NCBI GenBank assembly: GCA_011053145.1
Contig: DRLC01000244.1
Span: 1-40,038 of the forward strand
From: Planctomycetota bacterium
Lineage (GTDB): Bacteria > Planctomycetota > UBA1135 > GCA-002686595
DNA: 40,038 nt
Direction: 5' to 3'
The position numbers were made by a program, and so were the translations under genes. A model generated the notes under the pieces. It worked only from the letters and a program-made list of their open reading frames with translations, was not told the origin of the DNA and searched no databases. Shown here piece after piece: positions 7,766-37,153 of this stretch; position 1 is the stretch's first letter; each line of letters begins with the position of its first letter.

Positions 7766-10700
7766 ATGAGCCGGGCATCCGCTCCCCGTTCCACGTCCCC
7801 CGACGGGGACCCCCTTCGACGCGCGATCGACGAACTCTCCACGCGCCCGCCCGCGGTCGAACTCCCCGCCACCCACGCGCGCACGGCCGATCGCATCCCG
7901 ATGCGGACGCGGGCCCCGTTCCCGTCCCCCCTCTTCGAAGACACCGAGCGCAACCTCGCCGCGCTGCTCGTGTGGCTGCGTCGCACCACGCGCCAAACCG
8001 ACCTCGTGGTCGGCGTTTCGATCGAGACCACCGAGGACACGCGGATCGTCCCGATGCGCTTCGACCTCTCCGGCTCCCCGAGCTTCCGTGAGGTCGCCGA
8101 AGCGGTCCGCGACCGGATCGCGCTCGCGCATTCCGAACCCGTCTCGACCGGCGACATCCTCACCGGGCTCGGGCTGCGCGGACTGGGCGAGCTCTTCCAG
8201 ATCGCGCTCCTCACGAACGGCTCGAACCTCGATGGGATGGACTTCGTCCTGCGTACCGGGGAAGGGATCGTGGAATACGACGGTGCACTCTTCGACGCGG
8301 CGGACATGGAACGCATGCTCGCGCATTTCGCGACGCTGCTCGGCGGGATCGAAGAGGACCCCGAACTCCCGATCACCAAACTCCCCTTCCTCACCGACGC
8401 CGAGCGCACGAAGATCCTCTTCACCTGGAACGCGAAGGAGGTCGACTTCCCGCGCGATGCGACGCTGCACTCCCTCTTCGAAGCCAAGGTCGATGAGACG
8501 CCGGACGCGATCGCAGTCCGCCAAGACGGCAGGACCCTCACCTACCGCGAACTCGACGAACAGGCGAACCAGCTCGCGCACCACCTGATCGGGCTCGGGA
8601 TCGGCCCCGAATCGATGGTCGGCGTGTGCATCGAACGTTCCTTCGAGATGGTCATCGCCCTGATGGGCCTCGCGAAGGCCGGCGGCGCTTACCTGCCCCT
8701 CGATCCCGCCTACCCGAAGGAACGGCTCGCGCTGATGGTCGAGGACTCGGGGATCGAGACGCTGCTGACCCAGCGGCACCTCGTCGACTCCCTGCCCGAT
8801 TCGAAGGCCGCCCCGGTCCTCGTCGATGCGGAGAAGAAGCTGTGGAGCGGCGCACCGGTGACACGCCCGGCGGTCGCGATGGACCCGACGAACCTCGCCT
8901 ACGTGATCTACACCTCGGGCTCGACCGGAGCCCCGAAGGGCGTTCTGCTCGATCACCGCGGGCGCGTGAACAACTTCCTCGACTTCAATCGCCGTTTTTC
9001 GATCGGAGCCGGTGACGCACTGATCGCACTCGCCTCGTTGTCCTTCGACATGTGCGCCTACGACGTGTTCGGCACCCTCGCCGCGGGCGCCACGATCGCG
9101 CTCCCGAAGCCCGACGAGATGCAGGACCCCGCCGCATGGACGCGGGTGCTGAACGAATCGAAGGTCACCGTCTGGCACACCGCCCCCGCCTTCCTCGTGA
9201 TGCTCGTCGAGTATCTCGAGGCCAACCCCGAGCACGCCCCCGCGTCGCTGCGACTGGTGCTCCTCGGCGGCGACTGGATCCCGGTCACGCTCCCCGATCG
9301 CCTCCGCAAGCTCGTCCCCGGCGCGACCGTGGTCAGCATGGGGGGCGCGACCGAGTGTTCGATGGACTCGACGATCTACGTCATCGATGAAGTCGACCCG
9401 ACCTGGACCTCGATCCCCTACGGCGAGCCGATGGCGAACCAACGCGCCTATGTGCTCGACGACGAACTCGAGCCGCTGCCGGTCGGCGTGGCGGGCGAGC
9501 TCTACCTCGGAGGCATCGGCGTCGGGCGGGGGTACTTCGAGCGCCCCGAGCTGACCGCCGAGCGCTTCCTGCCCGATCCCTTCCAGCGGGCCGCGGGGGT
9601 CGAAGGCGCGCGCATGTACCGCACCGGCGATCTCGCGCGCTGGATGGAAGACGGAAACCTCGAGCTGCTCGGTCGGCTCGACAACCAGGTCAAGATCCGC
9701 GGCTACCGCATCGAGCTCGGCGAGGTCGAGGCGCGGCTCACCGCGCACCCCGCGGTCAAGGAAGGGGTCGTCGTCGCGCGCGCCGACGCTTCGGGCGAGA
9801 AGCGACTCGCGGCCTACATCGTCCAAGACCCTTCCTGGGAGGGCCCGGAGGAGGAAGGCGACGTGCAGGCCGAGCGCGTCGAGGACTGGCAGGCCGTCTA
9901 CGACCACGCCTACAGCCAAAACACCGAGGACACCGAGGACCCGACCTTCAACATCGTGAGCTGGGACTCCAGCTACACGAACAGCCCGCTCCCCGAGGAC
10001 GAGATGCGCCTGTGGGTCGACCAGACGGTCGCGCGGATCGGGCGCAACCCGCGCGATCGAGTGCTCGAGATCGGATGCGGCATGGGGCTCCTGCTCTTCC
10101 GCCTCGCCCCCGAGGCCAGCCGCTACGTCGGCAGCGATTTCTCCAAGGTGGCCCTCGAGTACGTCGATCGTCACGCGAAGCGCATGGGGCTCTCCCAGGT
10201 GGAACTCGAGAGCCGCTGGGCCGACGACTTCGACGGGATCGAAGACGCCTCGCTCGACCAGATCGTGCTGAACTCGATCATCCTCGACTTCCCGAGCATG
10301 GACTACCTGATGACCGTGCTCGACGGCGCGGCCAAGGCCGTGCGGCCCGGCGGGACGATCTTCGTCGGGGACGTGCGTCACGGCCCGCTCCTCAAGACCT
10401 ACCAGACGTCGGTGCAGCTCTTCCAGTCCTCCGACGAGACTCCGCTCGATGACGTGCGCGCGCGCACCCAACGCCTCCTGCGCCAGGAAGAGGAACTGGT
10501 CATCGATCCGCGCTTCTTCCAGTGGCTCGCGAACCGCCACCCGGCGCTCAGCGGCGCGCGCATCCAACTCAAGCGCGGTTCCTTCACGAACGAGCTGAAC
10601 GCCTACCGTTACGACGTGACCCTGTTCGTGGGCGAGGCGCCCGCGAAACCCGACACCACGCCCGAAGTGCTCGATTGGGCGAGCGGAGTCCAGACCTTCG

Positions 10701-11605
10701 AAGCCCTGCGCATGCGACTCACGAGCGAGAGGCCGAAGCACCTGCGCATCGACGCGATCCCGAACGGGCGCGTGCTGCGCGACGCGCGCAGTGCCGCGAT
10801 CCTGGACGCGGTCGATGCTCCGGAGACCGCAGGCGAGCTGCGCGCTCTGCTCGACGACCTCGATGCCCGCCACGGACGCGGGCTTTCCCCCGAGGCCTTT
10901 TGGAAACTCGCCGAGGAACTCGGCTACGCCTGCGACATCCGCTGGTCGGTCAACGGGGAGAACGGGGCTTTCGATGCATGCTTCGTGCTCGGCGCACCCG
11001 CCGAACGCGGGGAGGCCCTGGGGCAGATCTTCCTCGATGGGCACCCCGTGGAGCCCACCCTCGCCGCGTCCGACTTCGCGAACAACCCGACGATGGCCAA
11101 GCTCTCGCGCCAGGTCGGGCCCGAACTCAAGCGCCACCTCGCGGCCCAGCTCCCCGAGTACATGGTGCCCAGCGTCTTCGTGCCGCTCGACTCGTTGCCG
11201 CTGTCGCCGAACGGGAAGGTCGATCGCAAGCGTCTTCCCGAGCCGGACACCTCGCGGCCCGACATGGCCTCCCCCTACGTCGCGCCGGTCGGCGCCGTCC
11301 AGGAAGTGCTTTGCATGATCTGGGCCGACGTCCTCGGCCTCGACCGTGTCGGCGTCGAAGACGCCTTCCTCGACCTCGGCGGCCACTCCATCCTCGCGGT
11401 CCAGATCCAGGCCCGCCTGAACGAGATCCTTCCCTTCGACATCACCCTTCCGGACATCTTCCAGTCCAGGACCGTCGCCCGTCTGGCCGACCTGATCCGT
11501 AGCCGTGGCCGCGAGAGCGGACTCGACGCGGAGGAGGTCTGCGCGATGCTGCTCGAGATCGAGGAGCTCGACGACGACGAAATCGAGGCCCAAATCGGGT
11601 CGTAA
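7766..11605 (+). CDS. NRPS: half condensation lobe - adenylation with embedded methyltransferase - carrier, 1279 aa
   Basis: Residues about 60-210 match only the C-terminal half of a condensation domain ([19 protein letters not shown], then [20 protein letters not shown]); the N-terminal half with HHxxxDG is absent. The adenylation domain runs from about 225: A3 at 379 ([15 protein letters not shown]), A4 at 427 ([10 protein letters not shown]), A5 at 525 ([11 protein letters not shown]), A7 [11 protein letters not shown]8 [19 protein letters not shown], and A10 lysine K1151 in NGKVDRKRL. Between A8 and A10 sits a SAM-dependent methyltransferase (about 710-960; motif I VLEIGCG at 766-772, then [11 protein letters not shown]), the position used by NRPS N-methyltransferases. 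The carrier serine is S1208 (LGGHSIL). No thioesterase or epimerase is present. A4/A5 resemble the Cys/Ser-type subgroup seen in PchE/PchF, a weak hint about substrate. The next gene starts 2 bases after the stop. Confidence 0.92.
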
Positions 11606-11607
11606 CC

Positions 11608-12966
11608 ATGCAAGAGCTCGAGACCACCACCGACCTCACCCGTTTCGCGCAGAACGCGATCCAGCGCCTGCGCGAAGTCGACCCCGAACTCCATGCGATC
11701 CTCGAGGACGAGTACCGCCGTCAGGCGAACGTGCTGACGATGGTCGCCTCGTCCTCGATCGCCGATCCGGCCGCCCTGATCTGCGAAGCGATGCCGACGA
11801 TGAACGTGACGGCCGAGGGTTACCCCGGGAACCGCTTCCACGCCGGCTGCAAACACATCGACCGCATCGAGCAGCTCGCGATCGACCGTGCCAAGGCGTG
11901 TTTCGGGGCGCAGTATGCGAACGTGCAGCCCATGTCGGCGACATCCGCGAACGAAGTCGTGATGTTCAGCGTGATGAAACCGGGCGACACACTGCTCGGG
12001 CTCGAGCTGGACTCGGGCGGGCACCTGACGCACGGCTCCAAGGCGTCGATCTCCGGGCAGGTGTTCGATGCGGTCGGCTACGGACTGACCAAGGATGAGG
12101 TCATCGACTACGACCAGATGCGCGAACGCGCGCTCGAGCATCGCCCCAAGCTCATCATCTGCGGCACGACCGCGTACAGTCGCACGATCGACTGGGCGCG
12201 CTTCCGCGCGGTGGCCGACGAAGTGGGGGCGTTCCTGCTCGCCGATATCACGCACATCGCCGGGCTCGTCGCCGCCGGGCTCCACCCGAGCCCCGTGGAT
12301 CACGCGCACTTCACGACGATGTGCACCCACAAGCAGATGTACGGCGGTCGCGGCGGCCTGATCCTGATCGGCAAGGACTATGAAATGACCGCGCCGGGCT
12401 CGAAGCTGACCCTCGCGCAGATGGTTCAAAAGCGCGTCTTCCCGTACTTCCAGGGCGCGCCGAACCAGAGCCAGATCGCCGCCAAGGCGCGCGGGCTCGC
12501 CTATGTGGCGAGTCCCGAGTTCAAACAGGTCGCCCAGCGGGTCGTCGAACTCGCTCGCGCGCTCTCCGATGCCTTCCTCGCCAAGGGCTACCGAGTCGTC
12601 TTCGGTGGGACCGACAACCACATCGTGGTCGTCGACGTGGCCGCGAAGGGGGTCAGCGGCGTGAACGCCGAGAAGGCCCTCGAGGACTGTGGGATCGTCG
12701 TGAACAAGAACCGCATCCCCTACGACCAACGTCCGCCCACGGTCACGAGCGGGATCCGACTCGGGACGAACGGACTCGCGATCCGCGAGATGGAACCCGC
12801 CGACATGGCCGAGTGCGTGGATCTGATCCACGAGGTGCTCCAGAACGTCTCCCAGGTTTCGGACAAGGAGTACGAGCTCGAGGAGGGATTCCGTTCCTCG
12901 ATCGAGGAGCGCGTGCGCGCCATCGCACGCCGCCGCCCGATCCGCACCTACCCGGCCCCCCTGTGA
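11608..12966 (+). CDS. SHMT-family PLP enzyme, alpha-methylserine hydroxymethyltransferase-like, 452 aa
   Basis: Fold and core motifs are those of serine hydroxymethyltransferase: AEGYPG (69-74), EQLAIDRAKACFGAQYANVQP, D213 and H216 in ADITHIAG (PLP contacts), K242 in MCTHKQ (PLP Schiff base) and R384 in GIRLGT (carboxylate). Several active-site residues differ from GlyA. The Tyr before AEGYPG (E. coli Y55) is T68, the second Tyr of RYYGG (Y65) is H78, IASEN is changed to VASSS, and THKTLxGPRGG is THKQMYGGRGG. E70 (E. coli E57) is kept. The Tyr-to-Thr and Tyr-to-His pair is, to my knowledge, a mark of alpha-methylserine hydroxymethyltransferases/aldolases. It sits 2 bases after the NRPS gene. 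This placement recalls FmoH, the SHMT homologue that makes alpha-methyl-L-serine for the peptides JBIR-34/35. It may therefore supply a building block; housekeeping GlyA is unlikely. Confidence 0.88.
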   Translation: MQELETTTDLTRFAQNAIQRLREVDPELHAILEDEYRRQANVLTMVASSSIADPAALICEAMPTMNVTAEGYPGNRFHAGCKHIDRIEQLAIDRAKACFGAQYANVQPMSATSANEVVMFSVMKPGDTLLGLELDSGGHLTHGSKASISGQVFDAVGYGLTKDEVIDYDQMRERALEHRPKLIICGTTAYSRTIDWARFRAVADEVGAFLLADITHIAGLVAAGLHPSPVDHAHFTTMCTHKQMYGGRGGLILIGKDYEMTAPGSKLTLAQMVQKRVFPYFQGAPNQSQIAAKARGLAYVASPEFKQVAQRVVELARALSDAFLAKGYRVVFGGTDNHIVVVDVAAKGVSGVNAEKALEDCGIVVNKNRIPYDQRPPTVTSGIRLGTNGLAIREMEPADMAECVDLIHEVLQNVSQVSDKEYELEEGFRSSIEERVRAIARRRPIRTYPAPL

Positions 12967-13012
12967 TCCGACGGGGAGTCTTCCCGACTCCCCGCGACCG
13001 CAACGATTCGTC

Positions 13013-14572
13013 ATGGCACGGCTGACCCCCGAGAAACTCGCCCTCCTTCGCAAGCGTATGGCCGCGAAGGGCATCGAGAAGAAGCGCAGCGCGGTGATCC
13101 CGCGACGTGAGGGGGCCTCGGACGAGGCCCCGCTCTCGAACGGGCAATCTCGCCTGTGGTTCCTTGACCAGTTCGACCCCGGTTCGTCGCTCTACAACGA
13201 TTCCCTCGCTCTCACGATCCGCGCGGCCGAGCCCGGTTTCGAACTCGACGTCGACGCCTTCCGGCGCGCGTTCGCCGAGGTCCTGCGCCGCCACGAGGTC
13301 CTGCGCACGAGCTTCCACAACGGGCCGACCGGCCCGGTCCAGCACATCCATCCGGTCGAGGAGGCACGCCTCGGAGAGGAGATCCCCTTCGTGGTGCGCG
13401 ACCTGCGCGAACTGGGCGAGACGAACGCTCGGGCGGAGCTCGAACGATTGCTCCTCGCCGACGTCCAGGAGCCCTTCCAGCTCGATCGCCTCCCACTCCT
13501 TCGGGTTCTGCTCGCTCGCGTCACGGACGACGAGTGGGTCTTCGGACTCCCGATCCACCACATCGTTTCGGACGGCGTTTCCTACAGCATCATCTACGCT
13601 GAACTCGCCGCGCTCTACCGGGCCTACACCGCGGGCCGCCCTTCCCCCCTCGAGGAACTTCCGATCCAGTTCGCGGACTTCGCTGCCTGGGAGCACGGGA
13701 AGCTCGACGAAGCTTGGATCGAGGAGAAGCTCGGGTTCTGGAAGCGCTACCTCGGTGGCGATCTCCCGCGCATCGCCTGGCCGGCCAAGGATGCCCAACC
13801 GAAGAATCGCGGCGCGTACCATCGCCTGAGGTTCTCCGACGCGCTCTACAGCGCGCTGCAACGCTTCTGCCGCGAGAACGAGGTCACCTCGAACTGGGTC
13901 CTGATGGCGGCCTACTTCGTGATGCTCCACACCCTCGGCGGCCAAGAAGACATCCGGATCGGGACCCCGAGCTCGACGCGCAAGCACGCGGAGCTCGAGG
14001 GGCTCGTGGGCTTCTTCGTCCAGACGGTGCTCCTGCGAGTCGACCTCTCCGGAAACCCCAGCTTCCGAGAGGTTCTCGCTCGCACGCGCGCGACCGCGCT
14101 CGAGGTCTCCAAGGTCGAAGACGTGCCGTTCGACCGCGTGGTCCGAGCGATCCGACCCCAGCGCAGAAACGACCAGGTGCCCCTGATCCAGGCCTGGATC
14201 GCGCCGATGAAGGATCTCATGGATCCCCCGCGCATCCCGGGAGCCGAGACGTCCTACGAGATCGTCGACGGCAAGATCGCCCGCTTCGACTTCGCGATCA
14301 TCCTCGATGAGGCGCGCGGGGGCGTGACGGGATTCTGTGAGTACGACACCGACCTCTTCGAACCCGAGGTGGCGGCTGAACTCTCCGATCGCTACCAGGC
14401 CATCCTGCGCCAGGCCGTGGATCATCCCGACACCACGCTGAAACTCTTCCGAGGCACGTTCCCCGCTCCCGCGAAACCGGGTCTATCCTCCGGTCCCACG
14501 CCCCTGCCCAGGACCCAGCGTCGGCGGGCGCCGAAGAGCATGCAGCGCGTCAAGAGACGTCCGACGACCTGA
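13013..14572 (+). CDS. stand-alone NRPS condensation enzyme, 519 aa
   Basis: One full condensation domain from about residue 40 to 490, with an intact catalytic motif HHIVSDG at 182-188. Supporting motifs are LSNGQSRLWFLDQFDPGSSLYN (C1), RHEVLRTSF (C2) and GFFVQTVLLRVDLSGNPSFRE (C5 region). The N-terminal segment LTPEKLALLRKRMAAKG is a helix often found ahead of C domains. The C-terminal 35 residues are basic and disordered (QRRRAPKSMQRVKRRPTT) and could be a docking tail. It is probably the only active bond-forming C domain at this locus, because the other two C regions are partial or have lost the motif. It would join the aminoacyl groups held on the two carrier domains. It begins 46 bases after the SHMT-like gene without a clear ribosome-binding site. 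Confidence 0.9.
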   Translation: MARLTPEKLALLRKRMAAKGIEKKRSAVIPRREGASDEAPLSNGQSRLWFLDQFDPGSSLYNDSLALTIRAAEPGFELDVDAFRRAFAEVLRRHEVLRTSFHNGPTGPVQHIHPVEEARLGEEIPFVVRDLRELGETNARAELERLLLADVQEPFQLDRLPLLRVLLARVTDDEWVFGLPIHHIVSDGVSYSIIYAELAALYRAYTAGRPSPLEELPIQFADFAAWEHGKLDEAWIEEKLGFWKRYLGGDLPRIAWPAKDAQPKNRGAYHRLRFSDALYSALQRFCRENEVTSNWVLMAAYFVMLHTLGGQEDIRIGTPSSTRKHAELEGLVGFFVQTVLLRVDLSGNPSFREVLARTRATALEVSKVEDVPFDRVVRAIRPQRRNDQVPLIQAWIAPMKDLMDPPRIPGAETSYEIVDGKIARFDFAIILDEARGGVTGFCEYDTDLFEPEVAAELSDRYQAILRQAVDHPDTTLKLFRGTFPAPAKPGLSSGPTPLPRTQRRRAPKSMQRVKRRPTT

Positions 14573-14586
14573 CCCGGTACACGACC

Positions 14587-15651
14587 ATGAAAAAGCTCCC
14601 GAAGATCGCGCGCCGCCGCGTCGGTGGATCCGGTGAGGACCTCGTGCGCGTCCGCCCCCTCCTGGAGGGTCGCGCGCATCCGACCGTGATCGAACCGAAG
14701 GTCGATGGCCTCGACCTGGTCTCGTGGGCATCGAACAACCGGGAGAGGATCGCCTCCCTCCTCACCCGAAACCACGCGCTTCTCTTTCGCGGCTTCGAGG
14801 CCGACGGATCGAACCGCCAGTCGTTGATCGATCGCTTCGAGCGATTCGTCGAAACGGCGTCCACCGGCGAGCGCCTCTTCTACAAGGATCGCTCGACCCC
14901 GCGGAACAGCTACGGCGACCGGATCTACAACGCCACGGTCTATCCGCCCGACCAGACGATTCGTCTACACAATGAGGGCACCTATTGGGTGACCTGGGCA
15001 CGCAAGATCTTTTTCGCCTGCGTTACGAACGCCGAGACCGGCGGGGAGACGCCGATCGGCGACGTGCATGCCGTCTACGAGCGCATCGACCCCGAAGTCC
15101 GCAAGGAGTTCGAGGCCAAGGGCGTGCTCTACGTGCGCAACTACAACGACGGCTTCGGACTCACCTGGCAGAACGTCTACCAGACCGAGGACCCGAACGA
15201 GGTCGAGGCCTACTGCAACGCAAACGACATCCAATTCGAGTGGAAGGACGGTGGGCGACTGCGCACCCGCCAGCTCCGCCCCGCGGTGCGCGTCCACCCA
15301 GACGGCGGCGAGAAGCTCTGGTTCAACCACGCGGCCTTCTTCCATGTGAGCTCCCTCGACCCGACGACCCGCGACGCGTTCCTCTCGGAGCTCGGCGAGG
15401 ACGGGCTCCCGTACAACACCTACTACGGGGACGGTTCGTCGATCGACCCCGACACCATCGCGCACATCCACTCCGCCTACGAAGCGGAGAAGGTCGTCTT
15501 CCGCTGGCAGACCGGGGACGTCGCGCTCTACGACAACATGAGAATCGCCCACGCTCGCCAGCCGTTCACCGGAGAGCGGCTGACGCTCGTGGCGATGACC
15601 GAACCCTACCGCGGTCCCGAGACCGTGGGTGACGGACCAGACATCCGATGA
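14587..15651 (+). CDS. SyrP-like TauD/TfdA-family Fe(II)/2-oxoglutarate oxygenase, 354 aa
   Basis: Contains the 2-His-1-carboxylate triad as H128-x-E130 (RLHNEGTYW) and H322 (RIAHARQPF), with a following Arg (about R330, FTGERLT) for 2-oxoglutarate. The HxE variant, the NEGTYW context and the segment GGETPIGD are typical of SyrP-type enzymes that beta-hydroxylate carrier-bound aspartate and related residues. Length fits the family. Substrate is inferred from context: it lies between the condensation enzyme and the second NRPS and overlaps the latter by four bases (ATGA at 15648-15651), so it most likely modifies the aminoacyl group on that NRPS. Free amino-acid hydroxylation is the alternative. 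Confidence 0.88.
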   Translation: MKKLPKIARRRVGGSGEDLVRVRPLLEGRAHPTVIEPKVDGLDLVSWASNNRERIASLLTRNHALLFRGFEADGSNRQSLIDRFERFVETASTGERLFYKDRSTPRNSYGDRIYNATVYPPDQTIRLHNEGTYWVTWARKIFFACVTNAETGGETPIGDVHAVYERIDPEVRKEFEAKGVLYVRNYNDGFGLTWQNVYQTEDPNEVEAYCNANDIQFEWKDGGRLRTRQLRPAVRVHPDGGEKLWFNHAAFFHVSSLDPTTRDAFLSELGEDGLPYNTYYGDGSSIDPDTIAHIHSAYEAEKVVFRWQTGDVALYDNMRIAHARQPFTGERLTLVAMTEPYRGPETVGDGPDIR

Positions 15652-18600
15652 CGAACGAAACGATCCAGGGCTTCAGCATCTCGCCCCTTCAGCATCACCT
15701 CTGGCGGACCCAGGGCCCCGAGTCCGTCGGCTCACGTATCGCCCTGCTACGCGCTCGCGTTCAAGGGGACCTCGACGCGGACCGACTGCGCGATGCCCTG
15801 CTCGAACTCGCGCGTTCGAACGAGATCCTGCGCACGGTCTATCCGCTGCTCCCAGGCACCCACGTTCCGGTGCAGTCGATCCTCGATGAGGTCCGGGTCG
15901 CGTTCGAGGAGAGCACGTCCCCGGTCGAAGAGGTCGAGCGTCGCTTCGCGAGCGACCCCTTCGATGTCAAGGACGGCCCGCTCCTGCGGGCGGCGCTCGT
16001 GCGCTCGGGAGCCGATACCTATTTCGTCCTCGCACAGCCGACGATCTCCGCCGACGCGGTCTCGCTCTGGAACCTCGTCGAGAAGACCTGCGCGGTACTG
16101 CGCGGCGAGGCACCGGCCGCCCCCACCGAAGAGGACGAGGGGCCGATGCAGTTCGCCGACATCGCACAGTGGCTGCACGATCACCTCGAGAGCGAAGACG
16201 CCGAGGAGGGCATCGCCCACTGGCACGCGATCGGTTACGGGATGGGCGAGATTCAGCTTCCCCTGGCTTTCGATCGCGGGGAAGCGGTGACCGGTGTCGG
16301 CCGGCACGCCGAGCCCTTCGATGCCGGGGCGCGTGCGGCCCTGTCCGCCGCCGCGGAGCAGTTGGGCGTTGCCCAAAGTTCCGTCCTGTTCGCCGCCTGG
16401 AGCGCGTTCCTCGCTCGCAGCTCGGAGCAACACGATCTCATCGTCGGTGACCTCTCTCTCGGTCGCGGATTCGAGGGGCTCGACGAGGCCCTCGGACCCT
16501 ACGGACGCTTCCTTCCGATCGCGGTCCACGTGGACATGGGGGAAGACGGAACGACTCTCGCCTCGCTGGCGAAGGAGCTGGATGAGGCCCGCGGTCTCGC
16601 CGGCGAACACCATGAAGCCTTCGACTTCGAGCGGGCGGGCGCCGGAGGGAAGACGCTCCTGCCGGTCACGTTCGCGATGCACGCCGAGGTCGAGCCCACG
16701 AAGGCCGGGAACGCGACGTTGACGCTCGAAGCGCGAAGCTGCGACGCCGAGCCGCCCCGCATCGGGCTCGAACTCGATCTCGGATGCGCCGATCCCAAGC
16801 TGGTGTTCGCCTACGCGAAACGCCACCTCACCGAAGAAGACGTCGCCGCGATGGCGGACTCCTTCGTGACATTCCTCGCCGCGGCCCTCGCCCGTCCCGA
16901 GGCCTCGCTGGCGGAGCACTCGATGGTCTCTCCGGCGATGCGAGCGACCCTCTTGGAACGATTCGCTCTCGGACCGGACACCCCTGCGCCCGGAGAGCCT
17001 GTCCACGCCGCGATCTTCCGCATCGCCGCCGAAACGCCCGACGCGCCCGCCGTGGGTGCTCCCGACGGCAGCCTGAGCTATGGCGAGCTCGCGGAGCGCG
17101 CCCACCGCATCGCGAATCATCTGATCGCCCTAGGGCAGGGCCCGGGCAAGTTCGTCGGCCTGCACCAGGGCCGCTCCACGGACCTCGTCGCGTCGATCCT
17201 CGGGACCCTCGAGGCCGGCGCCGCCTACCTACCGCTCCCGCCGGAGTATCCCGCCGAGCGCATCGCGTTCATGCTCGAAGACACGGGCGCCGAGGTCGTC
17301 CTGTCGAACCGCGCCCACCGATCCGAACTCCCCGATTCGGTGAGGGCCCAGGTCATCTGCCTCGACGATTGCGAAGAGCTCTCGGCACAGCCCGCCGAGG
17401 CACCCGAGCCGCGCGGTTCGCTCGACGATCCCGCCTACGTGATCTTCACTTCGGGCTCGACCGGCAAGCCGAAGGGCGTGCCGATCCCCCACCGCAACCT
17501 TGCCCACTCGACCGCGGCGCGCTCGGACGTCTATCGCCACCGCGTCGAGAGCTTCCTGCTCGTCTCGAGCTTCGCCTTCGACAGCTCGGTGGCCGGAATC
17601 TTCTGGACACTCAGCCAGGGGGGCAAACTCATGCTGCCCGAGGACGGTTTCGAGCAGGAGATCGGCCAACTCGCAGCGCTCTTCGCCGAGCACGGTGTCA
17701 CGCACACTCTCGGTCTGCCTTCCCTGCACAAGCTCGTACTCGAAAGCGCGGAGAATGGCCAGCTCGATTCGCTTCGCACGGTCATCGTCGCGGGGGAGAG
17801 CTGCCCCGCTGAGTTGATCCGCCTCCACCGCGAGCGACTCCCCGACACCGAGCTCTACAACGAATACGGCCCGACCGAGTGCACGGTCTGGAGCACCTGC
17901 TTCGACTGCCTCGAGCCCTTCGAGCGCCGCAGCGTTCCGATCGGCCGTCCGATTCCGCGCGCGCAGGCCTACGTGGTCGACGCCCAGGGCGAACTCGCCG
18001 CGATCGGCTGTTCGGGCGAACTCCTGATCGCCGGCGCGGGCGTCGCACCGGGCTACCTCGGTCGCCCCGAACTGACCGCCGAGCGCTTCACGACCCTGGA
18101 CCTCGGCGATGGAACCTCCCCGCGCGTTTACCGCACGGGCGACCGCGTGCGCTGGCTCCCCAGCGGGAACCTCGAATTCCTGGGTCGCACGGACCACCAG
18201 GTGAAGATCCGCGGCTACCGGATCGAGCTCGAGGAGATCGACGCCGTCCTCGCTTCCCATCCCGATGTCCGCGAAGCGGTGGTGATGGCACGTGAGGACA
18301 CGCCCGGTGACCTGCGCCTGGTGGCCTACGCCCAGCCCCGCGCCGGGGCCGAGCTCGACCCGGCCGGTCTGCGCGACCACCTCGCGGGCCCGCTGCCGGA
18401 CTACATGGTCCCCGCCCACTTCGTGATCCTCCCGGACCTGCCCTTGCTCCCGAACGGCAAGGTCAACCGCAAAGAACTGCCCGCCCCGGACCAAGCCACC
18501 TCCCTCGTACGCGCGGCCTATGTCGAACCCAAGACCTCGCTGGAAAAGGCTCTCTCCTTGATCTGGAGCGATGTCCTCGGCGCCGATCGCGTCGGACTCG

Positions 18601-18809
18601 ACGACGACTTCTTCGACCTCGGCGGGCACTCGATCCTCGCGACCCAGCTCTTCGCGCGCATCGTCGACCTCCTCCAGGTCCGCATCCAGCTCCGCGCCAT
18701 TTTCGACGTACGCACCCTAGGCGGCCTCGCGAACCACATGCGTGAAGAAGCGGACGACCCCGCGCTGCTCGAGGAAACAGCGAGCGTGATCCTCTCCGCG
18801 CTGGATTGA
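15648..18809 (+). CDS. NRPS: degenerate condensation-like domain - adenylation - carrier, 1053 aa
   Basis: Residues about 1-445 have the condensation fold (ISPLQHHLWRTQ; LRTVYPLLPG; EDVAAMADSFVTFL), but the catalytic HHxxxDG site reads QPTISAD at 130-136, so peptide-bond catalysis is not expected. The adenylation domain (about 455-945) is complete: [67 protein letters not shown] and NGKVNRKELP. The carrier domain has S995 in [10 protein letters not shown]. It ends there with no thioesterase, reductase or terminal C domain. The C-like region could be an interface domain of the kind that recruits stand-alone beta-hydroxylases (the oxygenase overlaps its start), or a decayed C domain. Substrate not predicted. 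Confidence 0.92.
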   Translation: MTNETIQGFSISPLQHHLWRTQGPESVGSRIALLRARVQGDLDADRLRDALLELARSNEILRTVYPLLPGTHVPVQSILDEVRVAFEESTSPVEEVERRFASDPFDVKDGPLLRAALVRSGADTYFVLAQPTISADAVSLWNLVEKTCAVLRGEAPAAPTEEDEGPMQFADIAQWLHDHLESEDAEEGIAHWHAIGYGMGEIQLPLAFDRGEAVTGVGRHAEPFDAGARAALSAAAEQLGVAQSSVLFAAWSAFLARSSEQHDLIVGDLSLGRGFEGLDEALGPYGRFLPIAVHVDMGEDGTTLASLAKELDEARGLAGEHHEAFDFERAGAGGKTLLPVTFAMHAEVEPTKAGNATLTLEARSCDAEPPRIGLELDLGCADPKLVFAYAKRHLTEEDVAAMADSFVTFLAAALARPEASLAEHSMVSPAMRATLLERFALGPDTPAPGEPVHAAIFRIAAETPDAPAVGAPDGSLSYGELAERAHRIANHLIALGQGPGKFVGLHQGRSTDLVASILGTLEAGAAYLPLPPEYPAERIAFMLEDTGAEVVLSNRAHRSELPDSVRAQVICLDDCEELSAQPAEAPEPRGSLDDPAYVIFTSGSTGKPKGVPIPHRNLAHSTAARSDVYRHRVESFLLVSSFAFDSSVAGIFWTLSQGGKLMLPEDGFEQEIGQLAALFAEHGVTHTLGLPSLHKLVLESAENGQLDSLRTVIVAGESCPAELIRLHRERLPDTELYNEYGPTECTVWSTCFDCLEPFERRSVPIGRPIPRAQAYVVDAQGELAAIGCSGELLIAGAGVAPGYLGRPELTAERFTTLDLGDGTSPRVYRTGDRVRWLPSGNLEFLGRTDHQVKIRGYRIELEEIDAVLASHPDVREAVVMAREDTPGDLRLVAYAQPRAGAELDPAGLRDHLAGPLPDYMVPAHFVILPDLPLLPNGKVNRKELPAPDQATSLVRAAYVEPKTSLEKALSLIWSDVLGADRVGLDDDFFDLGGHSILATQLFARIVDLLQVRIQLRAIFDVRTLGGLANHMREEADDPALLEETASVILSALD

Positions 18810-18850
18810 GTACGGAGTCGGAGTACGGAGTCAGCGGGGAGTACGGAGTC
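18808..18850. repeat. three copies of GAGTACGGAGTC
   Basis: The 12-mer GAGTACGGAGTC occurs at 18808-18819, 18821-18832 and 18839-18850. It fills the whole gap between the stop of the second NRPS gene and the stop of the convergent sugar transferase gene. Spacing is 13 then 18 bases. Not strongly self-complementary; no T-run. Confidence 0.9.
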
Positions 18851-19562
18851 AATCCCGTCCCCGCCGGGCCACGCGTCGCCAGCACTTGCGGAGCATGAAG
18901 ACGACCGTCATCAGGATCAGGATCAGGTCGTAGGAGATCGACTTGTGTTGGATGTAGTGCTCCTCGCCCTCGAAGCGCAGCTTCCAATCCTCGATCGTCT
19001 TGTCGCCGATCGCGTTTTCTAGGACGGAGACCTGGCTGATGTTCGTGAGCCCGGGTTTGACGAGGTAGCGGCGGTTGAAGCCCGGGATGTGCTCGGCGAG
19101 GAGTTCGTTGAGCTTCGGGGCGATCGGGCGCGGGCCGACGAACTCCATGTCGCCGCGCACGACGTTCCAGAGCTGGGGCAGCTCGTCGATCTTCGAGTCG
19201 CGCAGGAAACGGCCGATGCGTGTCACCTCGGGGTTGTCCACGGTGACTCCCTTCTGGAGGTCCTCGTTGCGGTCGGCCCCCACACGCATGCTGCGCACCT
19301 TCACGATCCGGAACGTGCGGCCGAGGAAGCCGGGGCGCTCCTGGGTGTAGAGGAACGAGCCCTTCGAACTGACCCGCACCGGGATGTAGAGGATCAGGAG
19401 CAGGGGGAGCGCGAGGAGGAGGAGCACGAGTGCGACGAGGCGCTGCAGGAGCGCCCAGACCGTGTTCGTGAGCTGCCACTCGCGGTGGACGTGCCGCAGG
19501 TCCACCCCCTCGAGGGAAAGGTAGCCCCGGCGGCCGCGGTCGTTCGACCCCCCCGCGGTCAT
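18849..19562 (-). CDS. bacterial sugar transferase (WcaJ/EpsE-like, PF02397), 237 aa
   Basis: Polyprenyl-phosphate phosphosugar transferase domain that would start lipid-linked glycan assembly. A hydrophobic hairpin at about residues 40-65 (LVALVLLLLALPLLLILYIPV) is followed by GSFLYTQERPGFLGRTFRIVKVRSM, the core motif KIDELPQLWNVVRGDMEFVGPRP, and KPGLTNISQV; a second hydrophobic stretch lies at the end. It is the short monotopic form without the large multi-spanning N-terminal half. The start at 19562 overlaps the stop of the upstream gene as ATGA, so the two are probably translationally coupled. No glycan gene cluster is present in the window, so the pathway served is unknown. Confidence 0.88.
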   Translation of the reverse strand: MTAGGSNDRGRRGYLSLEGVDLRHVHREWQLTNTVWALLQRLVALVLLLLALPLLLILYIPVRVSSKGSFLYTQERPGFLGRTFRIVKVRSMRVGADRNEDLQKGVTVDNPEVTRIGRFLRDSKIDELPQLWNVVRGDMEFVGPRPIAPKLNELLAEHIPGFNRRYLVKPGLTNISQVSVLENAIGDKTIEDWKLRFEGEEHYIQHKSISYDLILILMTVVFMLRKCWRRVARRGRD

Positions 19563-20899
19563 CGCGCGTCCTCTCCGTTCGAACCGACCGCCGCTCCCTC
19601 GCGCTCGTTCCACTCGCGCAGCAGGCGATGGATCGAATAGGCCGAGTGTCGCACGCCGCCGAAAGCGTGGCGTCCGAGACGATGGCGCTCCACCATCGAC
19701 TGGAGCTTGGCCTCCATCATGTCGAGGATCGGGCGCCAGCTCGCGGGGTCGGACTTGTCGCACATCCCGTCACAGCCCAGGTTGATGAGCTGCTTCAGCG
19801 TGTCGACGTCGAGCACGCCCGAAAAGGCGATGATCGTCGCGGTCGGATGCTCGGCCCGCACCGAACCCGCGAGGCGGGCCGCGAGGTGGTCCCCGTGGAA
19901 GTCGTTGTCCAGGAAGTAGAAGTCGAAGCGGCCGCCGGCGTCGGGTTCCGTGCGCTTCTCGATCTCGAGGTCGGGGAAACGGCTCGAGAGCAGGAGTTCG
20001 AGATGATCGAGGGCGAAGGGGTCGTCGTCGACGAGCAGAGCGCGCGGGGCCCGCGGGCCATACCGCCCCTCATCCTTGCCCTTCGGGAGTGCACCCTCCA
20101 AGGCACACTTGGCGAGCAGCCACGCCCCCCAGGGAAGACCGCGAAGGATGTACTTCCCGAAGTAGCGCTTCGGTTCGTGGAAGAGCGCGTGAGCCGCCTC
20201 GAGCCCGGTGCGCTGCATCCAGCGCGGTGCGGGACGGCGTTCGCCCGCGAGGATTCGCAGTGCTCCATTCACGCCGAGCCACCAGGCCTCTGGTCGGTCG
20301 TGGCGCAGGAAGGAGATCAGCTCCTCCTGCACCTGCGATTCGATGCCCACGAAGACGAGGTCGGGACGCGCCTCGTCGATCGCGCGGCTGAGGCGCGCCA
20401 TCTCGATCGGGTCTCCTTGAACACTCCCGGGCGCGGGAGAGCAGCCGACGATCCGGAGCTCGGGGTGCCGCTCCTGGAAGCTCTTGGCGGCCGCGGTCAG
20501 GGTCCCGGAGTCCTCGGCGATCAGGAAGACCGAGCGCCGGCACGCCGCCGCCTCCTCGACGAGGAGCTCGACGAGTTCGAAGAGCTGCACGCGCTCGGGA
20601 AGTGGCGTGCGCTGGAGGCGACAGGCCCAGAGGAGAAGGGTCCCGACCGGGACGCGCAGGCTCGCCGATTCGAAGGTGTCGCGCTGCTCCGGATCGCGCG
20701 CGCAGCGCAGAAGAACGTCGAGGTCCGCCCCGAACAGCCAACCGCCACGCCCGCGGTCGAGTTCGTCCAGGATCAGGTCGGTGCATTCGGAGGTGCTGAG
20801 CGGATGCAGCCCCGTCCCGAAGAGCCCCACCTCGGGAAGTTCGGACATGCCGCGCTCGGGGCGCCAGGGAAAGCGCTGTCCGGTTCCGGATGCGGTCAT
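19559..20899 (-). CDS. WecG/TagA-like glycosyltransferase domain fused to a receiver-like domain, 446 aa
   Basis: Residues about 20-265 align with GT26 (WecG/TagA/CpsF): RTPLPERVQLFEL, RVFL-like strand SVFLIAED, and a well kept APRWMQRTGLEAAHALFHEPKRY. However, the DG motif holding the proposed catalytic Asp of TagA is PVG (V85-G86), and GAPKQE is IESQVQE, so activity may be lost or altered. Residues about 286-405 are a receiver-like domain: LLVDDDP (acid cluster D291-D293), candidate phospho-Asp D331 in FYFLDND, and CDK with K382. The start at 20899 is set by GGGAG 8 bases upstream. The receiver is a paralogue of the neighbouring stand-alone receiver. I know of no common family with this fusion. 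Confidence 0.8.
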   Translation of the reverse strand: MTASGTGQRFPWRPERGMSELPEVGLFGTGLHPLSTSECTDLILDELDRGRGGWLFGADLDVLLRCARDPEQRDTFESASLRVPVGTLLLWACRLQRTPLPERVQLFELVELLVEEAAACRRSVFLIAEDSGTLTAAAKSFQERHPELRIVGCSPAPGSVQGDPIEMARLSRAIDEARPDLVFVGIESQVQEELISFLRHDRPEAWWLGVNGALRILAGERRPAPRWMQRTGLEAAHALFHEPKRYFGKYILRGLPWGAWLLAKCALEGALPKGKDEGRYGPRAPRALLVDDDPFALDHLELLLSSRFPDLEIEKRTEPDAGGRFDFYFLDNDFHGDHLAARLAGSVRAEHPTATIIAFSGVLDVDTLKQLINLGCDGMCDKSDPASWRPILDMMEAKLQSMVERHRLGRHAFGGVRHSAYSIHRLLREWNEREGAAVGSNGEDAR

Positions 20900-21065: not shown

Positions 21066-21545
21066 CTACTCCTGCGCTTCGAGACGCCGGTTCCACTCCT
21101 GGAAAAGATCCTTGAAGGTGCGCACGAGGTAGCTCCCCGAGAGGGTGTCGGGAGGGCGGCTACGCTCCTCTTCCAGGGTTTCCACCGCGCGGTCCAGGGA
21201 CTCGAGCATGCGGGGCATGTCCGTGGGCACCTTCTTGTCGCAGACGCCGCTGCAGCCTGCGTTCAGGAGCTCCTTCAGCGTGCCTCGATCGAGCGAAGCC
21301 GAGAACGCGATGATCACCGCGCGGGGACGCTGGGCGCGGATCCGGCGGGCCAGGCGGCCGGCCAGTCGGATGCCCTCGAAGTCGTCGTCCAGGAAGTAGA
21401 GGTCGAATTCACCGGTCGGGTCGGGCTCCAGCCGCCGCTCGATCTCGAGCCCGGGATAGCGGTCCAGGAGGATCGCCTGGAGAAACTCGATCGCGTACTC
21501 GTCGTCGTCGAGCAGGAGCGCTTTCAGTCCGGTTCCGTGGGGCAT
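21066..21545 (-). CDS. stand-alone receiver-domain protein, 159 aa
   Basis: Receiver (REC) fold: ALLLDDDE (acid cluster D13-D15), FDLYFLDDD with candidate phospho-Asp D53, S82 in AFSAS at the Thr/Ser position, and CDKK with K104 in place of the usual KP. It shares FYFLD/LYFLD, IIAFS, the G-C-x-G-x-C-D-K block and a C-terminal L-x-x-E-W-N-x-R helix with the receiver part of the protein at 19559-20899, so the two are paralogues. No DNA-binding or enzymatic output is attached. It lies 66 bases downstream of the hybrid kinase on the same strand and is a natural acceptor for its HPt domain. A TAGGAT hexamer lies 9 bases before its ATG, so it may also have its own promoter. Confidence 0.82.
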   Translation of the reverse strand: MPHGTGLKALLLDDDEYAIEFLQAILLDRYPGLEIERRLEPDPTGEFDLYFLDDDFEGIRLAGRLARRIRAQRPRAVIIAFSASLDRGTLKELLNAGCSGVCDKKVPTDMPRMLESLDRAVETLEEERSRPPDTLSGSYLVRTFKDLFQEWNRRLEAQE

Positions 21546-21611: not shown

Positions 21612-24521
21612 TCACCCCGGCGGAATCCGCGCCGCGGCCAGGAGCGCACCCAACTCGGCCAGGGCCTCGGAGAGCTCCGTCTCCCCGCCGCCGGCGCGGA
21701 TCAGGTCTTCGCACCGGCCGGCCGCGGCTGAGATCGCCGGGAAGCCGTAGTTCGAGGCCGTGCCCCGGAGGCGGTGCACGCGGGTGCGCAGGCTCTCCAA
21801 CTCCCCGTCCCGGTGCAAACCCTCGATTTCGGGCCAGAGGGCCTCGAACGACGCGAGGTAGCGTTCGACCAGCGGCCGAAAGCGCGGATTGTCGGAAAGC
21901 GAGAAGACGTCTTCCCCTCCGCCAGCCGCGGGAACGGTGGCCGGCTCCTCGCCTCCGGCCTTCTCCCCCGGACGGGCCAGGTGGCGGGAGATCGTTTCGA
22001 AGAAGAGCGAGGGCACGACCGGCTTCGAGATGTACCCCGAGCACCCCGCCTCCCGACAACGCTCCTCGTCCCCCGAGAGGGCCAGGGCGGTCAGCGCGAT
22101 CACGGGTTCCTCGATCCCCGCCGCGACCAGACGGCGCGTCGCCTCATAGCCGTCGAGGACGGGCATGTTCATGTCCATCAGGATCGCATCGAAGGCACGC
22201 CCGTTGCGCTTCGCGGCGAGCACCGTTTCGACGCCCGACTGGCCGTCGTCCGCGGTCTCCACCTCGGCCCCGGACTCCTCGAGGAGGAAACGCAGGACCT
22301 CCTGATTCTCCGGACTGTCATCGACGATCAGGAGGCGCCGGCCGGCGAAGGTGCGTTCCGGCGGGGACGCGACGCCGAATCCCTCCCGGCTCAGGGCCTT
22401 GCAGGTCTCCCGCGCTTCCTCACCCGCGGGCACGAGCGGGAGTCGGACGGCGAAGCAACTGCCCTGCCCCACCTCGCTCTCCACCGTGACCATGCCGCCG
22501 AGAAGGCGCGCCAGGTGGCGGCAGATGTCCAGCCCGAGTCCCGCGCCCCCGAATCGTGTATCCCGGGACGGATTCACCTGGGAGAACGGACGGAAGAGGT
22601 CTCGCAGCGCTTCGGGCGCGATACCGATGCCGGTGTCGACCACCTCGAAGAGAAGCGCGTCCCGCTCCTCCCCGGCGAGAGCGAGACGAACCTCGACACG
22701 GCCCTCGTTCGTGAACTTGATCGCGTTCCCGACGAGGTTCACGAGGATCTGCTTCAGCCGCATCGGGTCGGTCAAGACGCAGTCCGGCACCTCCTCGGCA
22801 ACGCTCATGCTGAGTTCGAGCATCTTCTCGCGCGCCTGCCGAGCGAGGAGCTCCAGGACCTCCGCGATGAGATCACGGACGCAGCAGGGTTCATGGGAGA
22901 CCTGCATCTCGCCCGCTTCGATCTTCGAAAGGTCGAGCACATCGTTGATCAGACTCAACAGGTACCCCGTGCTGCGCCGGATGTTCCGCGCCCAGGTCTC
23001 CTGCTTCTTGCGATCCACGTTCGAGCGCGAAAGGAGCTCGGCGTATCCAACGATCGCGTTCATCGGAGTGCGCAGCTCGTGGCTCATGTTCGCGAGGAAC
23101 TCCGACTTGTAGCGGTTCGCGGCGCGCTCGCGCTCCACCGACTTGGCGAGGTCCTCGGAGATGACCTCGCGCTCGCGCTCCGCGATCCGGCGCTCGATCG
23201 CTCGAGCGTAGGAATCGACGATGATGCCCAGCAGTGCCAGCTCCTCGTCCTCCCAGTCGCGCGTGGCGGAGGTGTCGACGAATCCGAAGAAGCTCTCGAG
23301 GCGGCCGTGGATGATCACCGGCAGGACGAGCAGCGCGCGGACGTCCGGACGCAGGACCCCCGACCCCTCCTTCGGGACGATCCCCGATTCGGCGACGTTC
23401 GGAATGCGGATCGGCTTGCCCTTCGCGAGCAGGTCCGTCGCCCAGGTGTAGCCCTCGCTCGGTTCGGGGTGCGGCTCGATCAAGTGGATGTCTCCCTCCT
23501 CCTCCGTCCACTGGTGCGTGCGGAAGACCCAGCGGCGGTCCTCGCGGTAACGGCATAGGTAGGATCGGGAAACACCGAGGATGCGTCCCACGCCCGACAG
23601 GACGATTCCGATCGCGCGGTTCAGATCGTCGTGTTCGAGCAGACTCGTCGCGACCTTGCGGGAGACTTCGTTCAGGGCGAGCAGCTTTTCCCTTTGGCGC
23701 TCGGCGGCCTTGCGCTCGGTGATGTCGTGCGCGATCACGGCGAGCCCGATCACCTCGCGCGTCTGGGAATGCTGGATCGAAAAGGCGTTGACCCAGGCGG
23801 GAGTCGCGTCCGTCCCGCCGAAACCGCGCAATGGAAGCTCGCCGCGCCATCGGCCCGAGCGAATCGTGGGCAGGACCTCGGCATCGAGTCGGTTCCGCTC
23901 GCTGTCCGGGAAGAGCTCTCGCAAGCCGTGACCCGTCATCTCGGAGGCATCGACGAGTCCGAGCAATTCCGCCCCCGCCGGGTTCATGTAGGTGATCGAA
24001 CCTTCCGGGTCCGCGACGCAGATCATCTCCGCACTGTTCTCGATCAGGCTGATGAGCTGATCGCGTTCCTCGATCAGCCCCTGACTTCCGCTCGAGTCTC
24101 GGATCAGCGCGAAGATGTGGGGCTCGCCCCCCCACACTCCGGACCAGAGCCGTGCCTCGACGGCATAGGTGGAACCATCCTTGCGTCGATTGTGGCCGAA
24201 GAGGAACTGCGGTCCCTCGGCATCGAGGGCCTCCAGGACCTTCTGGAACCCCTCACGGGTCTGGCGCGTGCCTATCTCCCAGATCGCCCGCCCGATGAGT
24301 TCCTCGGCGCGGTAGCCGAGCTGGCGCAGCGCGCAGTCGTTCGCGTCGACGATCCGGCCCTCGCGATCGATCACGAGGCATTCGTCGGGAGCGCTGCGAA
24401 GTGGGTCCGCCTCCACGGCCCCATCCCCCGCACTCCCCGCCGGACTCCCCGATGCGTCGAGCCCACCGGTTCGTACCAGCCGCTCGATCGCTCCCTCTCC
24501 GTGGGTCTCGTCTCTTGCCAT
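21612..24521 (-). CDS. hybrid sensor histidine kinase: PAS-PAS-GAF-HisKA-HATPase-REC-HPt, 969 aa
   Basis: Two PAS domains (about 35-150 and 155-275, the second ending in HDITERK) and a GAF domain (about 290-455) act as input. The dimerisation/phosphoacceptor helix has H481 in MSHELRTPMNA; the ATPase domain shows N-, G1- and G2-box motifs (NLVGNAIKF, DTGIGI, GAGLGLDI). A receiver follows with D783 in ILMDMNMPVLDG, and a C-terminal HPt domain with H916 in VHRLRGTASNYGF. No membrane segment is seen, so sensing is probably cytoplasmic. The start at 24521 is preferred: the upstream ATG at 24557 overlaps a TAGAAT -10 element. The HPt would pass phosphate to separate receivers, and two receiver proteins follow on the same strand. 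Confidence 0.92.
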   Translation of the reverse strand: MARDETHGEGAIERLVRTGGLDASGSPAGSAGDGAVEADPLRSAPDECLVIDREGRIVDANDCALRQLGYRAEELIGRAIWEIGTRQTREGFQKVLEALDAEGPQFLFGHNRRKDGSTYAVEARLWSGVWGGEPHIFALIRDSSGSQGLIEERDQLISLIENSAEMICVADPEGSITYMNPAGAELLGLVDASEMTGHGLRELFPDSERNRLDAEVLPTIRSGRWRGELPLRGFGGTDATPAWVNAFSIQHSQTREVIGLAVIAHDITERKAAERQREKLLALNEVSRKVATSLLEHDDLNRAIGIVLSGVGRILGVSRSYLCRYREDRRWVFRTHQWTEEEGDIHLIEPHPEPSEGYTWATDLLAKGKPIRIPNVAESGIVPKEGSGVLRPDVRALLVLPVIIHGRLESFFGFVDTSATRDWEDEELALLGIIVDSYARAIERRIAEREREVISEDLAKSVERERAANRYKSEFLANMSHELRTPMNAIVGYAELLSRSNVDRKKQETWARNIRRSTGYLLSLINDVLDLSKIEAGEMQVSHEPCCVRDLIAEVLELLARQAREKMLELSMSVAEEVPDCVLTDPMRLKQILVNLVGNAIKFTNEGRVEVRLALAGEERDALLFEVVDTGIGIAPEALRDLFRPFSQVNPSRDTRFGGAGLGLDICRHLARLLGGMVTVESEVGQGSCFAVRLPLVPAGEEARETCKALSREGFGVASPPERTFAGRRLLIVDDSPENQEVLRFLLEESGAEVETADDGQSGVETVLAAKRNGRAFDAILMDMNMPVLDGYEATRRLVAAGIEEPVIALTALALSGDEERCREAGCSGYISKPVVPSLFFETISRHLARPGEKAGGEEPATVPAAGGGEDVFSLSDNPRFRPLVERYLASFEALWPEIEGLHRDGELESLRTRVHRLRGTASNYGFPAISAAAGRCEDLIRAGGGETELSEALAELGALLAAARIPPG

Positions 24522-24555
24522 GCCGTGTCCGCCGCACCCGGCGTTCGCCGCCCGC

Positions 24556-24561
24556 ATTCTA
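24556..24561 (-). promoter_or_regulatory. -10-like TAGAAT before the hybrid kinase gene
   Basis: TAGAAT on the minus strand, with the predicted start near 24550 and a leader of about 29 bases to the ATG at 24521. It overlaps the alternative ATG at 24557, arguing against that start. Confidence 0.35.
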
Positions 24562-35953: not shown

Positions 35954-37153
35954 ATGAAACGCGACAAGACTGGGCGCTACGAGGCAACCGTGACCGGCGA
36001 TGAGCCGGTCCGGGCTTTCGTGCCGGCTCCACTGCCCCCCGCTCCCCCGATAGACCTGTCCCCCTTGCAGGGCCGGCTGGAGACGGCGCTTCTGGCGCTC
36101 GGACGGCTGGACGCGCTCTCGACGCTGCTGCCGGACACGACCTTCATCCTGTACTCATATGTGCGAAAGGAGGCCGTACTCAGCTCCCAGATCGAGGGGA
36201 CACAGTCCTCACTCTCGGACCTTCTGCTGTTCGAAACGGAGGCGGCTCCGGGGGCACCGTTCGATGACGTGGTGGAGGTCTCCAACTACGTCGCGGCCAT
36301 GGAACACGGGCTCGCCCGGCTTCGGGGGGGATTCCCCCTCTCGAACCGGTTGCTGAAGGAGATCCACGCCAAGCTGCTCAAACGCGGTCGTGGGAGCGAG
36401 AAGTCGCCTGGAGAGTTCCGAAAGTCGCAGAACTGGATCGGAGGCTCGCGCCCCGGCAACGCGCACTTCGTGCCCCCCCCGGCCCATCTCGTTCTTGACT
36501 GCATGTCCGAGCTGGAGACGTTTCTGCACGAATCGCGGCAGGAACTCCCCGTTCTCGTCCGCGCAGCGCTAGCGCACCTTCAGTTCGAGTCGATCCACCC
36601 CTTCCTGGACGGGAACGGACGAGTCGGCCGCCTCCTCATCACCTTCCTCCTCTGCCACGATGGCGTGATTCGGGAACCGCTGCTCTACCTGAGCTTGTTC
36701 TTCAAGCAGCACCGTTCGAGGTACTACGCGCTCCTGGACCGCGTTCGAAATGAGGGGGACTGGGAGGAGTGGCTGGCCTTCTTCCTGGAAGGGGTCGCCC
36801 AGACAGCGGAAGGAGCCGTGGCCACAGCTCGCCGCCTCGTGGAACTCTTTCACGAAGATCGGGAGAGGATCCAGGGGGAAGGCAAGAAGGCCGGTTCGGC
36901 TCTGCGCGTTCATCAAGCTCTCCAGGAGCGGCCGGTCGCCTCCCTTCCGGCCATAGCCGGGCGCACCGGCCTCTCCTATCCTGCCACACAGGCGGGGATG
37001 GAGGTCCTCGAACGACTAGGCCTCGTACGGGAGTTGACCGGTCGCCGCCGCAATCGCCTGTTCGGGTACGACCGCTACATCGCGATCCTGAGCGAGGGAA
37101 CGGAGACCCCTCCTCGGGGCGACGGAGTCCAAGCGCAGTCCTCCGGCAGCTGA
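35954..37153 (+). CDS. Fic-family AMP-transferase with C-terminal winged helix, 399 aa
   Basis: Fic proteins usually transfer AMP from ATP onto Tyr/Ser/Thr of targets. The catalytic motif is complete: HPFLDGNGRVGR with H215. An inhibitory-helix motif, SSQIEGT (S77-G82, inhibitory glutamate E81), lies in the N-terminal part, making it a class II (intramolecularly inhibited) Fic with a Fic_N-type start (PLPPAPPIDL). The last 80 residues look like a winged helix (LPAIAGRTGLSYPATQAGMEVLERLGLVRELTGRRRNRLFGYDRY), typical of the SoFic-like group. Length is normal. A strong GGGAGG precedes the ATG by 3-8 bases, right after the long hairpin. No antitoxin gene is adjacent, as expected for class II. Possibly autoregulated through the winged helix. 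Confidence 0.92.
   Translation: MKRDKTGRYEATVTGDEPVRAFVPAPLPPAPPIDLSPLQGRLETALLALGRLDALSTLLPDTTFILYSYVRKEAVLSSQIEGTQSSLSDLLLFETEAAPGAPFDDVVEVSNYVAAMEHGLARLRGGFPLSNRLLKEIHAKLLKRGRGSEKSPGEFRKSQNWIGGSRPGNAHFVPPPAHLVLDCMSELETFLHESRQELPVLVRAALAHLQFESIHPFLDGNGRVGRLLITFLLCHDGVIREPLLYLSLFFKQHRSRYYALLDRVRNEGDWEEWLAFFLEGVAQTAEGAVATARRLVELFHEDRERIQGEGKKAGSALRVHQALQERPVASLPAIAGRTGLSYPATQAGMEVLERLGLVRELTGRRRNRLFGYDRYIAILSEGTETPPRGDGVQAQSSGS

Follow-up and report, generated by a model that had tools for sequence, protein, structure and literature searches.

Can a glycosyltransferase fold that appears to have lost its catalytic residues still serve a phosphorelay? The question is raised by a protein encoded in a 40,038-nucleotide stretch of a Planctomycetota genome (DRLC01000244.1, positions 1 to 40,038; hereafter the window), in which a domain of the WecG/TagA/CpsF family (GT26) is joined to a receiver domain (REC). 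Descriptions of how exopolysaccharide synthesis is controlled mostly concern transcription or c-di-GMP; a receiver built into a glycosyltransferase that acts after initiation would, if the proposal is true, connect a kinase to glycan assembly directly and fast. A sequence-only reading of this DNA had proposed that the GT26 domain lacks its catalytic Asp and is a glycosyltransferase scaffold that is either under direct phosphorelay control or repurposed to sense or regulate the sugar transferase encoded next to it. The features of the locus are listed in Table 1.

Table 1. Features of the locus, in window coordinates
Feature	Position	Strand	Remarks
GT26-REC fusion protein, 446 aa	19559..20899	-	ATG at 20899-20897
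GT26 (WecG/TagA/CpsF) domain	20150..20665	-	residues 79-250 by Pfam PF03808; fold ~23-270
Val85 codon, at the position of TagA catalytic Asp65	20645..20647	-	Asp in five intact fusions, Thr in G009
Degenerate GSPKQE motif, residues 187-192	20324..20341	-	ESQVQE; Gln191 and Glu192 kept
Atypical receiver domain (REC), residues 283-400	19700..20053	-	D291-D293, D331, S360, K382
Bacterial sugar transferase PHPT (initiating Und-P sugar-phosphate transferase)	18849..19562	-	PF02397, 1.2e-47
Stand-alone REC, same atypical subfamily	21066..21545	-	43% identical to the fused REC
Hybrid histidine kinase PAS-PAS-GAF-HisKA-HATPase-REC-HPt	21612..24557	-	motifs SHELRTP, LMDMNMP and HRLRG intact
NRPS (C-A-PCP)	15648..18809	+	converges on the PHPT gene with a 39-base gap; neighbours the module in G009 too; context only
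TauD-family dioxygenase of the neighbouring NRPS cluster	14587..15651	+	context

The N-terminal part of the protein belongs to the GT26 fold family, matching the full PF03808 profile at 128.9 bits (cut-off, 27.4; E = 2.3e-37), and it is the only match to this profile in its genome. When an AlphaFold2 model computed from 27 related sequences (mean pLDDT, 87.9) was searched with Foldseek, this part returned TagA structures with TMt of 0.90 to 0.93 and rmsd of ~1.9 Å (TMt 0.92 for 7mpk), and the C-terminal part returned receiver structures with TMt of ~0.78, reaching at most ~0.8. The predicted structure confirms both folds. An alternative start at Met18 lies closer to the start of the homologues.

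The active site was mapped by phmmer against the PDB, with alignment to TagA of T. italicus (7mpk). The pocket of that enzyme contains Thr37, Asn39, Asp65, Arg83, Gln167 and Glu168, with Asp65 as the proposed general base, and Arg214, Arg221 and Arg224 of its C-terminal appendage sit in the active site (PMC6493773). No gap occurs near this site in the alignment: LNVPDG of TagA stands opposite LRVPVG of the window protein, placing Val85 at the position of Asp65 and bearing out the PVG-for-DG substitution noted from the letters. Thr37 is replaced by Gly57, Asn39 by Asp59 and Arg214 by Ala238; the equivalent of Lys166 is also gone; and the GSPKQE loop, listed as a missing GAPKQE in the sequence-only reading, retains only S, Q and E, with Gly, Pro and Lys lost. 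Common to the window protein and the enzymes TagA/TarA, WecG and CpsF (GT-E fold; 7mpk, 5wb4; PMC6493773) are the fold, the full-length profile, R103 (TagA R83), Q191, E192, R245 (TagA R221; like Arg214, placed by the same phmmer alignment) and the C-terminal APxW..GLE helix, which here carries the APRWMQRxGLE motif reported earlier (residues 224-234); unlike these enzymes, it has a receiver domain at its C terminus. TagA chemistry would hardly be possible for this domain, which has lost at once the base, Thr37, the Asn on the acceptor side, the lysine of PKQE and one Arg of the appendage.

Neither of two trivial explanations accounts for these losses. An alignment slip is ruled out, since the alignment is free of gaps around the site against both TagA and five related fusions with an intact active site. 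An intact DG at the aligned position in homologues, which the sequence-only reading had named as a sign of such a slip, was indeed found in those five, but there it reveals what was lost. A sequencing or assembly error is ruled out by a second, independently assembled MAG (G009, JAJDEV010000253.1), in which the fusion is degenerate at the same positions, with T85 and A57 where the window protein has V85 and G57.

The phospho-acceptor assigned to the receiver on first reading, D331, holds up. The domain has an acidic cluster (D291-D293), and S360 and K382 are kept; the DD, D, S and K are near-invariant across 16 relatives, and these residues together with the CheY fold are those of a receiver. 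Its PF00072 match (11.9 bits; cut-off, 30.2) falls below threshold because the subfamily is divergent, with NDFxG or DDFEG after the phospho-Asp in place of the usual xMPxxDG. Members of this subfamily carry a conserved C-terminal WNxR tail, as seen in the stand-alone REC (window 21066-21545) and aligned relatives, and further families of the phylum have copies that are not fused to GT26 (G485, G334).

A search for further GT26-receiver fusions found seven genomes with this arrangement, all in the window's own planctomycete family; outside it, neither the search of the class (154 genomes) nor that of a phylum-wide sample of 392 genomes turned up any. One scan of genome contigs recovered four of the same loci. 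A fusion unique to the window is thereby ruled out. Five fusions (G052, G007, G034, G008 and G024) keep TPNLDH, (V/A)DG, RVAGS(D/N)LI, LLGG, GSPKQE and GISFSF, all of which are lost in the window and G009, the only degenerate members. The latter two are 57% identical and come from two genera, each with the 446-aa frame free of stops and frameshifts; their pocket positions read (window/G009) G/A57, V/T85, V/A190, R/C103 and E/D187, and D59 is identical in both. That five of the seven fusions are intact points to an ancestral GT26-REC that was probably active in an exopolysaccharide locus, and to later loss of the active site on the branch leading to the window and G009. In a tree built from REC, PHPT and free REC, these two group with 79% support; they probably share one loss, but with support no higher than this and a very distant outgroup the tree falls short of proof.

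The start of the PHPT gene overlaps the stop of the fusion gene by a 4-base ATGA (19562-19559), and a 4-base overlap (ATGA, GTGA or TTGA) with PHPT as the next gene was seen in all seven fusions, which substantiates the translational coupling read from the window. Every fusion genome also has a free REC of the same subfamily, and all six related genomes have an orthologue of the hybrid kinase (52 to 60% identity). In G009 it is adjacent; G007, G034 and G024 have it on the contig that carries GT26-REC, ~12 kb upstream of the fusion; in G008 it shares a contig with the free REC; and G052 has it on a different contig. This co-occurrence, together with the fusion and the coupling, suggests that the ancestral phosphorelay reached both receivers.

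Intact loci combine the hybrid kinase/HPt, exopolysaccharide genes (Wza, Wzc, Wzx and GT2), the second REC and PHPT. In G008, for example, Poly_export, Wzz/AAA, flippase and GT2 genes lie between the kinase and the free REC, and a sulfotransferase gene follows PHPT. Orthologues of the flippase (Wzx) and GT2 were detected in all five intact genomes and were not found at E 1e-10 in the window's genome (G000) or G009; since these MAGs are ~91% complete, the absence could partly be missing sequence, but the two genomes agree in it and the genes on either side are contiguous. In both, the kinase, REC, GT26-REC and PHPT genes are adjacent and convergent with the TauD/NRPS cluster. Besides this PHPT, the window's genome encodes three more, along with three Poly_export genes. 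In relatives at the order level (G091 and G082), one ORF encodes PHPT-GT26 with an intact active site (ADG, GCP(K/R)QE) and lies after a related REC; these loci have the same partners as the window but differ in that PHPT and GT26 are fused and the REC is free. REC, PHPT and GT26 have thus been joined repeatedly.

Individual loci add some detail. In one relative at the order level (L043:9303-11181), the ORF joining PHPT and GT26 directly follows a REC of the atypical subfamily, and L044 (G082) has the order REC, PHPT, GT26, the latter two in one frame. At an intact fusion locus (L038:7270-8967), a 565-aa protein with no Pfam match at E 0.01 is encoded between the free REC and GT26-REC.

To compare constraint on the two domains, positions invariant in the five intact fusions were scored (126 in GT26, 37 in REC). 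The window protein has changed at 46 of the 126 GT26 positions versus 2 of the 37 REC positions (Fisher p = 1.5e-4), and that of G009 at 47 versus 4 (p = 2e-3), i.e., ~37% of GT26 invariants versus 5 to 11% of those in REC. As a control, each intact member was compared with the other four, giving 2 to 9% for GT26 and 3 to 24% for REC. Identity between the window and G009 is 0.53 in GT26 versus 0.69 in REC; intact pairs show the reverse, with GT26 the more conserved domain. Between the same two genomes PHPT is 77% and the free REC 80% identical; therefore, the module is not simply dying. The accelerated change is limited to the GT26 domain.

Of the invariant GT26 positions, 31 have changed in both genomes (17 expected if independent), to the same residue at only 7. 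Replacements that mostly differ between the two genomes are what relaxed constraint would produce, and together with the faster GT26 branches and the loss of Wzx and GT2 orthologues this favours plain decay, in which the domain lost its function after the exopolysaccharide genes disappeared and has been drifting since; the protein would then be kept, if at all, for its receiver (e.g., as a phosphate sink in competition with its free counterpart) or for translational coupling of PHPT. We consider this unlikely, although it is the most serious of the alternatives: the open frame has persisted in two genera, the fold is predicted with high confidence, 64 of the 126 invariants are kept in both genomes, including Q191, E192 and R245, and dN (0.43) versus dS (0.84) for the GT26 domain gives a ratio of ~0.5 rather than 1. 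Less probable still is a new enzyme with another catalytic arrangement and substrate, perhaps linked to the product of the neighbouring NRPS. The alignment offers two candidate acids for its pocket, D59 at the Asn39 position and E187 (D187 in G009) at the first Gly of GSPKQE; the retained Q191, E192 and R245 and the NRPS/TauD neighbours shared by both loci fit as well. However, the differences at positions 57, 85, 190 and 103 make a conserved new active site improbable, and the NRPS genes are convergent with the module, not co-transcribed. The least probable reading is that GT26 remains active through another base or substrate-assisted catalysis. A D65A variant of TagA does retain some activity (0.052 versus 1.5 µM/min; PMC6493773), and the window protein keeps R103, Q191, E192 and R245, but five pocket or appendage residues (the equivalents of Thr37, Asn39, Asp65, Lys166 and Arg214) were lost together, the set of replacements in G009 is different, and the downstream polymer genes are absent.

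Ranked above these is the reading that an ancestral GT26 enzyme under phosphorelay control has become a non-catalytic, receiver-controlled partner of PHPT, a regulator or scaffold, as the sequence-only reading had suggested in one of its variants. We give it roughly even chances, and favour it because the fused REC, the free REC and PHPT show strong conservation and GT26 retains its fold; the receiver has stayed under constraint as the GT26 active site decayed. Further observations count against it: the two pocket acids that the window protein and that of G009 share would permit other chemistry; change of GT26 that is faster than in intact members, with dN below dS, also fits passive decay alongside a useful REC; and 4-base overlaps are common in operons and do not prove physical contact.

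According to the partner reading, what remains in the window is a pared-down exopolysaccharide module linked to a phosphorelay. In the ancestral module, the hybrid kinase with its HPt would have phosphorylated two related atypical receivers, one free and the other fused to a GT26 enzyme. This enzyme would have extended the lipid-linked sugar supplied by PHPT, its translationally coupled neighbour, so that the fused receiver would gate the second step in building the glycan. Later, the branch leading to the window and G009 would have lost the polymer-assembly genes, and its GT26 the general base, Thr37, the acceptor-side Asn and the GSPKQE loop, with the fold, Q191, E192, R245 and a fully conserved receiver retained. 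Today, GT26-REC may bind PHPT, the lipid-linked product of PHPT or a nucleotide sugar, and may alter PHPT activity or access depending on whether D331 is phosphorylated. More tentative, and in our view somewhat short of an even chance, is the general form of this proposal, namely that a catalytically dead GT26 serves as a phosphorelay output domain and controls lipid-carrier-linked glycan synthesis without transferring a sugar. If true, the intact relatives would be its matched counterparts, the same fusion in an active form gated by phosphorylation. With five intact and two apparently dead versions, the family offers a natural comparison for a GT26 fold without catalysis.

The claim that the arrangement is new stands in part. 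We found no paper describing a GT26-receiver fusion in a literature search that was thin on subscription journals; however, the arrangement occurs in seven genomes, and a REC-glycosyltransferase fusion is not new in kind because REC-GT2 (BcsA-like) response regulators, e.g., MTH_548, are present in Methanobacteriaceae (PMC5847659). Like the window fusion, these join a receiver and a glycosyltransferase in one polypeptide and are confined to one family; unlike these archaeal GT2 proteins, the fusion described here contains GT26, is linked to a kinase/HPt and to PHPT, and has two members without an active site. Control at the protein level has a counterpart in Caulobacter, where HfsJ, a GT26 enzyme of the adhesive holdfast polysaccharide, is controlled by HfiA (PMC3900383), although this is a separate 68-residue inhibitor that binds HfsJ rather than a fused receiver.

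Elsewhere in the window, positions 7766-18809 (+) hold a small NRPS cluster encoding A-MT-PCP, an SHMT-like enzyme, a stand-alone condensation protein, TauD and C-A-PCP, whose orthologues adjoin the same module in G009, again convergent with PHPT. A Fic-domain protein (Fic_N and Fic) is encoded at 35954-37153 (+).
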